From Sphagnum magellanicum (taxonomy: Eukaryota > Streptophyta > Sphagnopsida > Sphagnales > Sphagnaceae), in the NCBI GenBank assembly GCA_021904315.1, contig CM038918.1:15949349-16013348 (forward strand): a DNA stretch of 64,000 nucleotides, read 5' to 3'. Below are positions 41,574-63,422 of the stretch, piece by piece (position 1 is the stretch's first letter; each line of letters begins with the position of its first letter). The translations under genes were made by a program, and so were the position numbers. The notes below the pieces were generated by a model. That model was not told where the DNA came from. It worked only from the letters and a program-made list of their open reading frames with translations, and made no database searches.

Positions 41574-44400
41574 TCAAGATTGTAATTCAATTGTCAAAAG
41601 ATTAGAAATTTGTGCTGTCAAGTTCTCACTAGACTGCATCAGGTCTGTCCACAAGGACTCGGACGAGTCTGACAAATGCTTATTGTCGTTGAGACTGTCG
41701 TCGTTTTGGAGATAACCAGAGATCAGGTCATATACTGATCCATCCGCACTGCTTCCGTTGAGGTAGCTGTCGATGTCGTCGGTCTGGTCTCCACCATCCT
41801 CATCTCTTGCTGCTGCTGCCGCCTCTAAGGTGCGAGCCCAGTCGTCGTCGTCGTCGCTGCCCGCCGTGCAGCTGGTACTAGTACTGTCCGTGGACCCTCG
41901 ACCTTCAATGCTGGTCTCTAGTTCTTCTTCTACATCAGAGCTGCCACCTTGGGTAATGGTGGTGGCGGTGACGGCGGTGGTAAACACTTGTTGTTGTTGT
42001 GAGCTGCATCCTGTAGTTGGGATGATCTGCCATTGGTCACGGGACCAACTGGTTTCGGCAGCTGCTGTTGTTCCGGCATTTGTAGTTGTGGGTGTAGCAG
42101 TGGTACTAGTATTCACGGCGCTGGACAAGACGCGGGAGTCATGATTCTCAGTCGCAACAACAGCGCCGGCGGCGGTGGTCACAGCCTTAATCTTCATTCT
42201 CTGTAGTCGCTTCCTATGATGAACTGCAGAACCGGCGTTGCTGGAGCTGCTGCACGTGTGCTCGCCTACATACGTAACTTCAAAGAGTGAAGGATCCTCG
42301 TCTGTGGGTTGCACCGTCTTCTTCGCATTGCACTCCTTGACACTGCACTTGTAATATCCTCTGTTGCACAAACCACCAATAAATTGTTCACAGTTGGTCA
42401 CATGATCAGCAAGAACCCAATTCTCCCCGTACCTCTGAAATCGATAAAAAAGGACACTAGATTCAAGTTCAGGAAAAGTTTGAGATGACTTCAAAATCAG
42501 CAGTTGAGCTAATGCAGCAGCAGCTATGAGATCCATGAAGTGTGTAATAGACCAGTGAGAACTGATCTTGAGGACTTGGGGAAAATTTTCAAGCTCATCA
42601 GCCATGGCGTACCTGCAGAAGTTTGCGTTTTGAATAGCCTTATTGCCATACTTCTTCCAACCCCGATGACCATCATCTGGAATACCCTTCTTCTCCTCGT
42701 CTCCTAGACGCTGGTATTGAACTTCTGAGTACTTGTGCTCTACTTCCGCACTCGCCTGCTGATCTCTGCAGCACAAGTCCATCATCTAAGTTCTCAGGGA
42801 CCATTCGTGAGCCAGCCAGCTGCTTGAAGTATCATGCCTAGCTAGAAACACTAGATCAACATCTCTACTTCCAGAATCCAAAGCTGGTCTTGTGAACTAC
42901 CACAATTCTTCAGAAATGCTTTTCATCCAGCTTTGAGATCAAATGTCTTAGACCCAATTCAGTTCTTGTGAACCACACAATTCACAAATGCTTTCTCCTT
43001 TGACACTGCTGATCAGTAGAGCTCACACATGCGGGTATGCAGGCAAATACCTCTCGCGCTTTGCAGGACGGATTGGGTTTCCAGTCTTCAAGGAAGCACG
43101 CTTAATGTAAGAAGCTGCTGAGGCCTCGGGAACGGTTTGTTCCGAGTTTTCAGTTTTTCCGCATGTCGCCGCGAGCTTAAATGCTTCAGCGCCGGCAGCA
43201 GCAGCGCCGGAAAGCTGATCATAGCTCCTTATGGGTGCATCATGAGGTGCCGCGTCCAGTGATCTGCACGTCGTCGATGAAGGCATGCGGCTTTGTCCAG
43301 ATTGAAGATGATGCTCTTGTGTGAGTACCGGATCCGCAAAATTGCCGGACAGAAACAACTCTTCTGATGCATGAACAGCGGGCCATGGGTCTGTTGAATC
43401 CATGAGCAGCTGCTGAGGCATTGGCACCACGTCCCCTGAATGCAAGTTCAGGGACTCTGATGTCAAGACTGATTGATCACCTGCAGCACAAAACCAACAG
43501 ATCATGTTAGCACAAATTGTACATGACCAGCTGCTTCTTGCAGAATTGATGGGAATCTCTTTCTCCGGTGCCAAGTTTTCTGCATAATTAGGTCCAGGAA
43601 TCTAAGGTACCTGCTGCTGTTGCAGTTGGAGCTGCAGCCGAATTTGGAATATTCATATGATCAATGCCTGCAAACAGGTAGCTGCTCAAGGGACTTTCTG
43701 CAACTGTACTGGGTCCGGATCTACCTGCACTGAAGCAAGAGAAGGGCTGCTGGCCTGCAGTGAAAGGGTGAGGCGAGGACGAGAGATTTTCCTGTATGAG
43801 AGGTACGTGGAGGGGACTCAGAGGCGTGTGTAGTTTCAGCTTTGATGAGGAAGAGCTGATGCCAGGTGCTGGCGCCTGCTTCACAACACTACTAGTCTGG
43901 GTCATCCGCGACTCCGGCTTGATCGGTAAATTTTCATACTTGCCGCGGAACCTCATGGCAAGCTGCCTGACCCCCGTCGCTGATGAATCTGTCACTAGCG
44001 TTGCAGCTGGAGCAGTCATTGCTGGATCCACACACGACGGTGCAGACGTAGTTTGCGACAAAATCTCCTTGAGACGACAGAGAGCAAGGTGGCTCCAATC
44101 CATGGAATTCTCCAGCTTCGCCTTCAAAGTTCTGAAAACTATGGGTGGGATGATACAGACCTGATCACAGTTGACATTTTCACCACTAACACCTGGTAAT
44201 TGATCTCGCATCTGCATCACTGTCGAAGACGATAGACCCAACTGACGATCCTGATCAGATGAATGCAGCATTAGCATCCCCCACAAATCTTCCTGGTGTA
44301 TTATAGCTCTCCTCAGCATCTCCTCCACCTTCTCCACGCACTGCTCTTGACTCCAATTTCCGGCTCCTAATCTCATCATCCCCTCCCTAAAATGATCCAT
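41574..44400 (-). CDS. WRKY: WRKY transcription factor, group III-like, with WKKYGNK variant
   Basis: Four exons on the minus strand: 44400-43611, 43480-43051, 42765-42613 and 42360-41574. Phases 1, 2 and 2 match and total 2160 nt (719 residues). The last intron splits the arginine codon before YYKC, the conserved WRKY-domain intron position. The domain (about 437-494) reads DGHRGWKKYGNK, then NANFCR, GYYKCSVKEC and FEVTYVGEHTC. Zinc ligands are C-X4-C-X23-H-X-C; the HXC end is the group III mark. WRKY factors bind W-boxes (TTGAC) in the nucleus in defence, stress and senescence. A basic patch (RPAKRER, about 401-407) could be a nuclear signal. The C-terminal third is acidic with Asp and Ser runs, like an activation domain. 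At 719 residues it is much longer than most group III members. An in-frame ATG at 44541 would add 47 residues; MDHF at 44400 is preferred for its G at +4. Confidence 0.93.
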
Positions 44401-58900: not shown

Positions 58901-58919
58901 CTAATTCCCTAAGGATGCG

Positions 58920-60093
58920 ATGGATGTCATGGCCCAAACTAAACGATCAGTGGAAGACACTATTCATCTTGATGCAAACATCAAAAGGTTCAAGGAGATG
59001 GCGAGAACCCTAAAAGAAAAGAAAAAAAATCGAAGGCGAAGATTTGACTTCCAAGACTTTCCAATTTTTAGAGATTCTGGTCCTTATTTAGGTGAAGGAT
59101 GTGGGATCGCAAAAAGTAAACATCACCATCGGATAATTAGTGGCAATGGTGTGTCAGCTCGAAGGGAGTTGAGAAAAGGGTTGTCAACACCTAAAGTCCC
59201 AAAAGTACTCACGCCTTTTAATGCCATAGCAGCCGAGCGCAAATGTGATTCGATCATTGATGTGCAATGTAATGGATTAATGTTGCGTGGAGTGTTAGTG
59301 GATGGAGGGGCAGGAGTCAATGTGATGACAATTCCTATAGTGAGATACTTAGGCTTGAAAATTGATAGGCCAGCCTCAGTAACCTTAAAGATGGCTAACA
59401 AACAAGTTGTTAGGCCAAAAGGAGTCATTAACAATGTGGTGATCACTGTAATGAGGGTTTCTACCATTGTGGATTTCCATGTGGTATTAAAGGAAGATGG
59501 GGCTTATCCAATGATATTAAGTAGGCCTTGGTTAACAAAGTCGCATGTAAGGAACTATTAAGGCGAATGATACATGACCATTGGAGTTCATCCTAATCGA
59601 CAGAAAGTTCCATTTGTTAGTTTTGTGAAAAGCTCTAGAAGGACGAGTGAATATGAGGATGAATCAGAAATAGACCAAAGCTCTAGCTCTGAAGGGATTT
59701 ACACGTATGATTTTAGTGAAGAGGAAGTAGGGTTATATGCTTTGGAGACAATTTTTAAGGTTGGAGTTTTGTCGAATCAAAAAGTTCAAGGGGATGATAA
59801 CTAATCAACTCCATGCGTGTTAACATAAAGAGAAGTTGTGGAACGACTAAGCAAGATTCAACTGGGACCAGATTTTCAACTGGAGGAAAAAAAAAACAAT
59901 ATGAGGATTTACTTCATAAGTATATCCATCTTTTTACTTTCAGCTACAAGGACCTAAGGGAAGTCACCATGGAATAAAAAAAAATTGAACTATTACCAAA
60001 TGCCAAATCGATCAATGACATGCCCCCAAGTTCTTTATTAGACCCCAAAAGGGTCCAACTATGTCAAAGAGCGGAAGTAGTTGGAACTCAGTG
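58920..60093 (+). pseudogene. gypsy protease and linker
   Basis: A 213-residue open piece (58920-59561) holds an aspartic protease core: LRGVLVDGGAGVNVM near 59280-59325 (Asp at 59301), followed by MTIPIVRYLGL and, near the end, VLKEDGAYPMILSRPWL. The DGG form replaces the common DSG/DTG; similar forms occur in some plant gypsy lineages. A second piece (59574-59804) is an acidic, serine-rich linker (EIDQSSSSEGIYTYDFSEEE). Sequence then degrades up to the interruption near 60100. Confidence 0.7.
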
Positions 60094-60109
60094 CCGCTCC
60101 TAGCTTCCA

Positions 60110-60837
60110 ACACTAAAAGGGGTAAGAGGGGCATGCTAAAAACTCCGAGATTAGATTAGGAAGAAGGACAAACCATTTAGTTGGTCCTGCATCTAAAACC
60201 AACCAATAAGTTGGTTAGTTCACATTAAAAACATTTTCGGTGTTGGAATAAGGCACATGCAACCCTGGATTCACTTGACTCACCATGGTTTGGACTTGAG
60301 GGAAGGCACCACCTTCCCCCATATAGTATTTTCTATGCCTTTCCGCCACACTTGCATCCGAATGGCATTTTTTCCCAAGACTCCCAAAGTGGAGTCCTGA
60401 AACTATCTCAGTTTGGACTCCCGAGACTTTGGGCATTCGTAACTTCTCGCTCCAATCCTTGATAGGGACGAGGTCTAAAGCAAACTTGTAACTCTCCTTG
60501 AAATTTTTCCAATGGTGTGTTGCACTCCACTTGCACACCCCGGAATTGGGTCGATTCCCGATTTTTAGTGGTCGAGAGTCAAATTGCCAATTTGACTTCC
60601 GACCTTTCTTTCAACTATAACTTGTGCTGCAGATGTCAAAATGGCTCATGGGAGGCCATTTTGTACATCTACACTTCAAGACCTTTCCAATGGTATGAAG
60701 AACACCTCAATGCGAGGTGTTTTGACCCTTGCAATTGAGTTCTGAATTTTTGGGAGTCCCGGAGGACTCCCAAGTCCCATATTCGGAAGTGTGAATGGCG
60801 ACCTCACACTTCCTTCAAAGTGGGGTTGCGACACTCA
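60110..60837. mobile_element. Unexplained insertion between gypsy protease and reverse transcriptase
   Basis: Between the linker and the first reverse transcriptase motif the polyprotein frame is lost for about 700 bp, and the base composition shifts to higher G+C with GGAGTC / GACTCC motifs on both strands. Phrases such as TAACTTCTCGCTCCAATCC and GACCTTTCCAATGGTATGAA resemble LTR sequence of other plant gypsy elements. TGTTGG at 60241 and ACACTCA at 60837 could be termini, but no target duplication matches. A solo LTR is one explanation. Confidence 0.4.
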
Positions 60838-63422
60838 GGGCCAAGCAAGGGAGGTGGAACCCAAGATACACGGCCATGGTGAAGGAAGTGCTTGACAAGT
60901 TGTTGGAGGCAGGGTTCATTAGGCATGTGGAGACAATTGAGTGGGTTTCTCCTGTGGTATTAGCATTAAAGAAGAATGGCAAGCTAAGGGTATGTGTCAA
61001 TTACAAAGCTTTAAACAAAGTAATTAAGAAAAACTAATACCCTTTGCCATTTTGTGAAGAAATTTTGGAAAAAGTAGTAGGGCATGAGATGTACACATTT
61101 GAAGATGAGTACATGGGCTACCACCAGGTGAAAATTACTTTAGAAGATCAATTAAAGACCACATTCACCACACCTTGGGGGACATTTTGTTACACAATAA
61201 TGCCCTTTGGTTTGTGCAATGCTACAAGGACATTTTAATGTTTAATGAACAAGGTCTTTGATCCATTCTTGGGCCTTTTTCTACGGGTTTTCATTGACGA
61301 CTCTGGAGTTTATAGTGATAAAGCTTCTCACCTTGCCAAACTTGATTTAGTTTTTCAACGTTTGGATAGTTCAGGAGTGACTTTGAACCCTGAAAAAACC
61401 ACAATTGGTTTTTCAGAAGGGAAGATGGTTGGATACATTGTGTCAAAGGATGGGTAGCCATAGATCTCAAGAAGCTTTATAAGATTTCAAAGTTTCCCTT
61501 TCCCACCATGAAGAAAGCCCTTCGAGGTTTTTTAAGGATGGTGGGATATTATCGTAGTTCATACACATGTTTACAACAAAATCACATCCTTTAATACGAT
61601 TCTTGCGTGAAGATGCACCTGCACCAATGAAGGACGAGGTGTCAAAACGGGCATTCGAACAACTGAAGTCAGCTCTTCAAATTGCGCCAATCCTTTGAAC
61701 TCCAGATTAGAACAAACCATTTTTAGTATATTATGATGCATCTGGAGAAGCAATGAAGAACACACTATCACAATTGGATGAAAATGGCATGACCATCCCA
61801 TTCATTTTGCTAGCAGACAATGAACTTCAACAGAGAAGAATTATATTATGATCGAACAAGAAGGTCTTGTAATTATTTTCTTTCTTAAGAAGTTTCGCCA
61901 TCACTTGTTGGGGTACAAGGCCAAAATTGTGACAGATCACAAGGCCTTAACCTACTTGGTCAACAAGCCCAATCCAAGTGGTCGACTTGCTCGATGGTTA
62001 CTCTTGATGGAGGAATTTGACATTGACATTGTCCATCGTCTAGGGAGGCGGCATGGCAATGTTGATGGCCTTATAAGAGCATACGAAGGAATGGGTGATG
62101 TTTCAGAGGATGACGACTTTCCAGATGTTACAATCATGTCCATTAATGCAAAAGAAGCACCTAAAGAATATCGGGAAATCATTCAATACTTAGATGGCAT
62201 GAGGTTTCTAGATGGAGCCACAAAGGCAATACGAACAAGAATTGTGCACAAGAGTCGAAATTATTCGATGATAGGCAATCAGCTCCACTTCCAAAGAAGG
62301 GATGGTGTTTTACGACAAACCATTGGAAAACGTGACACCTCATGTCTTTTGTATGAGTCTCATGATGGGTTTTGTGGAGGCCACTTTGCGGGAAGAATCA
62401 CTGCAGAAAAGATTTTGCAAGTAGGTTACTATTGGCCCACCCTCTTCAAGGATGCCCATGATTATTGTAGGAATTATGATGTGGGTCAAGCCTATGCACA
62501 AAGGTCTACTATAAGTGGCCTTTTACATCCCATACCCCCTTTAGGACCTTTTGAAAAATGGGGAATTGATTTAATGGGCCCATTGCTAATGATTAGGAGA
62601 GGGCATCGATTCATTGAAGTTGCCATGGACTACCTCACAAAGTTTGCAAAAGTACGTGCCTTGAAGTCTTCAGTGAAACAAAAAGTAACACAATTTCTGT
62701 ATGAATGAATTTTTACTCGATTTGGGACACCACTTGAAATTGTTTCTTATAATGGTCCCCAGTTTCTGAGTGAGGTTGTGGAAAACTTGTTAGCACGCCT
62801 TGCAATGAAACATAGGTTTACCACTATGTATAAGCTTAGCATTAATGGCCTAGTAGAAAGGACCAATAGGACATTGTGTTCCATGTTGGCAAAAAAGGCC
62901 AAAGTTCATGCGAACATTTGTGATTGGGATCTCAAAATCCACCATGTTGTGTGGGTTTACAACACCACATACAAAACTGCCACATGGTATTCACCTTTTC
63001 GTTTAACCTATGGGATGGAAGCGTTTTTACCCATTGAACTAGAAGTAATGACTTTACGCACTGCCACAACAATGAGACTTCCTTTGGATGAATCCCAACG
63101 CCATCGATTATTATAACTTAACAAGTTGGACAAATTGCAGTTGGAAGCCTACCAATCCATTGAAGTTGCACATGCTCAACAAAAGAAGGCTTTCGACAAG
63201 AAGGTGAAGAAAAAGGAGTTCAAAGAAGGTGACCTTGTCATGATGTTTGACGCTCGACATCATCATAGGGCTTTCAAGAAATTGTTACCCAAGTGGTTTG
63301 GACCTTTAGTTATCAAAAAGATGTTTGTTGATAATGGGTCTTATGAACTTGAAAATGTCGATGGCTCACCATATCTAGACCGCATTAATCATGACAAATT
63401 GAAGAAGGTTTTGGATAAGTGA
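60838..63422 (+). pseudogene. gypsy reverse transcriptase, RNase H and integrase
   Basis: Reverse transcriptase: RWNPRYTAMVKEVLDKLLEA, EWVSPVVLALKKNGKLRVCV, TTPWGTFCYTIMPFGLCNA, and the catalytic FIDD at 61290-61301 (followed by SGVYS where ILVYS is usual). RNase H: VTDHKALTYLVNKP and RLARWLLLMEEFDIDIVHRL. Integrase: HDGFCGGHFAGRITAEKI and YYWPTL with the zinc ligand pair damaged (CRNYDVG); GIDLMGP keeps the first catalytic Asp (62568-62570); VSYNGPQF has Tyr where the second Asp belongs; NGLVERTNRT keeps the Glu. The GPY/F module (WFGPLVIKKMFVDNGSYELE) ends at a stop at 63420-63422. Several stops (61035, 61236, 61455, 62706, 63114) break it. Confidence 0.85.

Follow-up and report, generated by a model that had tools for sequence, protein, structure and literature searches.

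The unusual WRKY motif encoded in this 64,000-nucleotide stretch of Sphagnum magellanicum DNA (contig CM038918.1; hereafter the window) is standard for one moss branch of the WRKY family, not a one-off factor. At least 14 genes of this type are present in the genome, and the agreement of all 14 paralogues in the length of the insertion, the frame of the motif and the splice phase is more than chance. The initial annotation had described a single rebuilt protein. This view was overstated, as the form is regular throughout the clade (14/14 genes) and its WKKYGNK heptapeptide has been published for Physcomitrella patens. Known moss proteins of the group III-like type account for most of what is unusual about the window gene, and its product, to judge from the sequence, is probably a functional DNA-binding factor whose specificity residue has changed.

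The predicted gene occupies positions 44400-41574 on the minus strand and consists of four exons that encode 719 residues before the stop (Table 1). The splice model recovers the gene placement, protein length and intact reading frame of the earlier account. All three introns (130, 285 and 252 nt) have GT..AG ends. At the third, the PR intron, the end of exon 3 (..TTC TGC AG) is joined to the start of exon 4 (A GGA TAT TAC) to yield ..NFCRGYYKC... in the protein. The 719-residue model contains only one WRKY domain. Its spliced form, IPDDGHRGWKKYGNKAIQNANFCRGYYKCSVKECNAKKTVQPTDEDPSLFEVTYVGEHTC, matches positions 1-58 of 59 in the Pfam WRKY model (PF03106) with E=1.3e-21.

Table 1. Features of the predicted WRKY gene, in window coordinates
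Feature	Positions	Strand	Description
Exon 1	43611..44400	-	263 codons, N-terminal region; splice model
Exon 2	43051..43480	-	Basic PAKRER stretch at its end; splice model
Exon 3	42613..42765	-	First half of WRKY domain; domain portion from 42683
Extra residue, Gly codon directly before Trp	42660..42662	-	HMMER gap placement; extra residue in 14/14 paralogues
Heptapeptide WKKYGNK, at WRKYGQK position	42639..42659	-	Read from sequence
PR intron (intron 3), 252 nt, phase 2	42361..42612	-	Position and phase common to 14/14 paralogues
Exon 4	41574..42360	-	Zinc-finger half C-X4-C-X23-H-X-C (to 42252), basic stretch, Ser-rich and acidic tail, stop

The domain of the window gene reads DGHRG-WKKYGNK-AIQNANFCR, and the exact WRKYGQK heptapeptide is absent. 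Both reported substitutions, WKKYGNK for WRKYGQK and FCR for FPR, are confirmed in the sequence. The extra glycine before the tryptophan is also real. Compared to solved WRKY chains, one additional residue falls directly before the Trp in all five of the HMMER alignments listed (13 chains matched), and the anchors further upstream, IP and DG[H/Y], are displaced by that one residue too. Neither profile nor domain searches found a second WRKY-motif exon within the window. Because the motif also lies within one exon, splicing that restores WRKYGQK is hardly applicable as an explanation.

Some further observations concern intron 3 and the surroundings of the gene. The length of this intron is divisible by three and its through frame has no stops (2 to 23 in the 13 paralogues), a situation seen in about 1% of shuffles. 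If it were retained, the product would have 803 residues, 84 of them inserted in the WRKY domain. A structure prediction made on the unspliced segment 42785-42240, in which intron 3 is translated, returned a mean pLDDT of 35.4 and a pTM of 0.25 and is uninformative on the fold. An AG at 42435 on the minus strand, 74 nt upstream of the conserved acceptor, is more pyrimidine-rich than the latter; its use would cut the protein short at 469 residues and leave out the zinc finger. The 2 kb preceding the ATG contain six TTGAC sites, counting both strands, where the window averages 5.1 per 2 kb, and three TTGAC(C/T) sites where it averages 2.1, giving no hint of self-regulation by this count. Elsewhere in the window, positions 58905-63116 on the plus strand hold open frames with retroelement domains, matching RNase H (1.4e-16) and integrase zinc binding (4.5e-06); a match to aspartyl protease is weak and below the cut-off.

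The genome searched comprises 438,994,042 bases in 31 contigs. The same 14 clade genes emerge whether the query is the Pfam model, the spliced domain or a composite built from the first-half exon. The composite search returned 14 places at E up to 1, and the count is a lower bound (at least 14). Every member of the clade has the extra residue, a PR intron of phase 2 at the Arg codon and a C2HC finger ending in H-X-C, and in each the DGH Asp is five positions ahead of the Trp, where four is usual. The residue directly before the Trp is Gly in eight genes, Arg in four, Trp in one and Ser in one. The heptapeptides are WKKYGNK (3), WRKYGNK (3), WKKYGSK (5) and WKKYGKK (3). Exact WKKYGNK is found in the window gene, L054 and L055, and the other 11 genes carry variants of W[KR]KYG[NSK]K. 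Motif position 6 is thus Asn in six genes, Ser in five, Lys in three and Gln in none. FCR takes the place of FPR in 11 of 14 genes. The initial reading of this tripeptide was correct, and it is no oddity of the window gene but typical of the clade.

The other WRKY domains of the genome have a different form. In the tree alignment, the remaining 30 WRKY rows have WRKYGQK with Asp four places before Trp and no extra residue. Three rows were dropped from the tree, namely the half domain DGYRWRKYGQK of L068 and two false hits in L071. The row pattern required Tyr-Gly, and so missed L067 and the stronger variants L070 and L071; L072 gave no row. The extra residue is absent from L067, L070 and L071. 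L067 (C1:5041309-5044470, plus strand) encodes an intronless WRKY-like domain, DGYNWRKYNEI, in which WRKYNEI replaces WRKYGQK. L071 (C2:3531691-3536346, plus strand) and L070 (C18:6224217-6227351, minus strand) each have an H-X-C finger exon following an exon that reads DTWTW-NMYYSK and DIWNW-EICHKK, respectively. Their predicted joins match Pfam WRKY at 3.9e-12 and 7.2e-12, and the WRKYGxK motif is gone. A search of viral contigs yielded no relative: 105 stretches matched the peptide patterns, and none of them encodes one.

The closest published counterparts of the window gene are from another moss. WKKYGNK is given as the conserved signature of the Physcomitrella group III proteins PpWRKY35-38 in the legend of Fig. 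4C of a 2015 study (PMC4350883). These proteins resemble the product of the window gene in being from a moss, in carrying WKKYGNK and in being labelled group III or group III-like. Section 9 of the same paper swaps the moss motif with the fungal one (WKNNGNT), in conflict with both its section 6 and the figure legend; the motifs found in Sphagnum side with the legend. No mention of an extra residue before the Trp was found in the available text of PMC4350883, within a narrow literature coverage. WKKYGNK was found in two papers, and WKKYGSK in none of the 17 papers that contain at least one of four motif variants. More broadly, the portions available of other published work accept motif variants within the WRKY family, and those of a survey of 43 plant species also list W-K-K-Y variants.

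Fungal WKNNGNT proteins, compared here by their description in PMC4350883, share a single domain, Lys2 and Asn6 with the window gene. However, their finger is C-X6-C-H-X3-C and they do not have the Tyr-Gly-Asn-Lys frame. Moss group III lies nearest to fungal WRKY-like proteins in the tree of that study, as far as its text is available. AtWRKY50-type proteins with WRKYGKK, AtWRKY50 itself being of group IIc, are also changed at position 6; Lys is likewise present there in three of the 14 moss paralogues (WKKYGKK), and Asn in the window gene. No insertion is described for the WRKYGKK-type variants listed in the accessible parts of the literature.

Among solved structures, the best match is the vascular group III protein OsWRKY45 (PDB 6ir8; E=1.3e-14). 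The two share the HTC finger end and a similar stretch after the motif (EIQNS in OsWRKY45, AIQNA in the window gene), but OsWRKY45 has WRKYGQK, C-X7-C spacing and no extra residue. Group III features present in the window gene are the single domain, the H-X-C finger and the PR intron. The published group III finger, as given in the text available, is C-X7-C-X23-H-X-C. In the clade, X23 and H-X-C are present, with C-X4-C in 11 and C-X5-C in three of the 14 genes in place of C-X7-C, and the genes are therefore termed group III-like and not strict group III. In a tree of 61 columns with long branches, which carries a warning of false joining, the 14 clade genes join OsWRKY45 (98/95), while RRS1, also of group III, falls elsewhere. 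The clade rows make up one side of a branch (94/86). Because vascular group III is split, the tree is not taken as proof of a group III origin.

The consequences of the altered motif for DNA contact can be gauged from proteins with known contacts. Strand beta-2 of GhWRKY17, in its structure with DNA, spans W249-K255, from the motif Trp to the last Lys. The extra residue of the window gene lies just outside this strand, before its start. Only two of the seven residues within the motif differ, and one of these changes, Arg2 to Lys, is conservative. Since the insertion only precedes beta-2, the contact strand is not rebuilt as was originally proposed. When the GhWRKY17 numbering is mapped onto the window gene, it retains six of the eight residues described as key in the available account of that protein, and R250 and Q254 are replaced by Lys and Asn. 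Trp1, Lys3, Tyr4, Gly5, Lys7, the beta-3 Arg/Tyr/Tyr and the four zinc ligands are invariant in all 14 genes. The place of GhWRKY17 R278 is occupied by Lys or Arg throughout the clade and by Lys in the window gene. In AtWRKY1-N, K3, Y4, G5 and K7 account for the majority of the base contacts named in the accessible portion of that report.

Mutant data of similar coverage bear on motif position 6 and on the place of GhWRKY17 P256. Q254A abolished DNA binding by GhWRKY17, and Q121A of AtWRKY1-N gave no visible shift, so a domain without Gln6 could bind much more weakly. With P256A, GhWRKY17 binding was almost lost; this place is Ala in the window gene and is variable among the WRKYs of this genome. 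According to the available part of a review, exchanging Gln and Lys at motif position 6 swaps the DNA preferences of AtWRKY11 and AtWRKY50, which makes a changed site preference plausible here. Given the contact residues that are kept, these mutant phenotypes and the AtWRKY11/AtWRKY50 exchange, an altered preference or affinity may fairly be inferred, and loss of DNA binding less so. The finger, C-X4-C versus C-X7-C in vascular group III, differs in a way that might count against usual binding.

The likely reading, on this basis, is that the window gene encodes an intact group III-like WRKY factor, one of 14 paralogues, and a putative reader of W-box-like sites whose residue 6 alters affinity or preference. 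The domain would fold as the usual WRKY sheet, and the extra residue would be accommodated as a one-residue bulge or a longer turn before beta-2, after which the Trp would re-anchor the strand. Lys2, Lys3, Tyr4, Gly5 and Lys7 could then still reach into the major groove at a W-box-like site, and residue 6 (Asn in the window gene, Ser or Lys in paralogues) may adjust affinity or preference around the TGAC core.

The original suggestion that the protein binds another site survives in part. A changed preference is plausible in light of the reported position-6 exchange, but the DNA-contact residues are mostly kept. In its strongest form, the clade would read a site other than the W box: the insertion, Lys2 and residue 6 would re-aim the strand, and different sites would follow from the presence of Asn, Ser or Lys at position 6. 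Three residues do take the place of the Gln6 missing from all 14 genes, all 14 share one insertion length, and a Gln/Lys exchange at this position is reported to change the preferences of AtWRKY11 and AtWRKY50. Such a re-aimed strand is nevertheless unlikely, as Lys3, Tyr4, Gly5, Lys7 and the beta-3 contacts are invariant across the clade. Considerably less probable is a domain that has given up specific DNA binding and works by contacting proteins, such as other WRKYs for which it might be a decoy or partner. Loss of a Gln that is essential in two tested WRKY domains would fit this role, but the DNA-facing residues except 2 and 6 are conserved like zinc ligands across the 14 genes, which a protein-contact role alone would not require. 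A pseudogene, assembly error or wrong gene model can be dismissed almost entirely: the pyrimidine-rich upstream acceptor in intron 3, with its 469-residue product lacking the zinc finger, could point to a wrong model, but join, phase and motif are the same in 14 of 14 genes, pN is below pS, and exon 1 is conserved near 12 of 13 paralogues.

The preferred reading of an intact factor is accompanied by purifying selection on the domain of the clade. When all 14 clade domains are compared, pN is lower than pS in 90 of 91 pairs, with one dS undefined (L055). The open frame, the conserved splice sites and this ratio uphold the initial judgment that the changes are not simple decay. Of the 12 exon 1 matches near paralogues, one is weak (L065, E=0.021); L053 is without a match. 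The closest paralogue is L054 on contig C6, with 65% identity in exon 1 and, in the domain, dN of 0.097 and dS of 0.314.

The spread of paralogues among contigs hints at their history. Values of dS from the window gene are 0.31 to the C6 copy and 0.55 to two C9 copies. Published duplication peaks lie at Ks 0.406 and 0.643, and contigs C6, C9 and C12, provided that contig numbers equal chromosome numbers, would belong to one ancestral chromosome D (PMC9946827, as far as its text is available). The domain is short, and the rough agreement of 0.31 and 0.55 with the order of these peaks is therefore only suggestive. On a smaller scale, L045, L046 and L047 form a nearly identical trio with WRKYGNK and C-X5-C. 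Two of them are 22 kb apart on C9 and one is on C14; this near identity and spacing look like the result of recent duplication.

It is possible, though doubtful, that the moss branch lost Gln6 and gained a residue ahead of the contact strand, and that Sphagnum then acquired Asn, Ser or Lys at position 6 with the other contacts fixed, partly via genome duplication, to give a natural series of site preferences. What had appeared to be a single odd factor is instead the replacement of the usual contact motif throughout a moss clade. Should residue 6 govern site choice here in the way it does in AtWRKY11 and AtWRKY50, these 14 genes would constitute a natural test set for the evolution of WRKY specificity.
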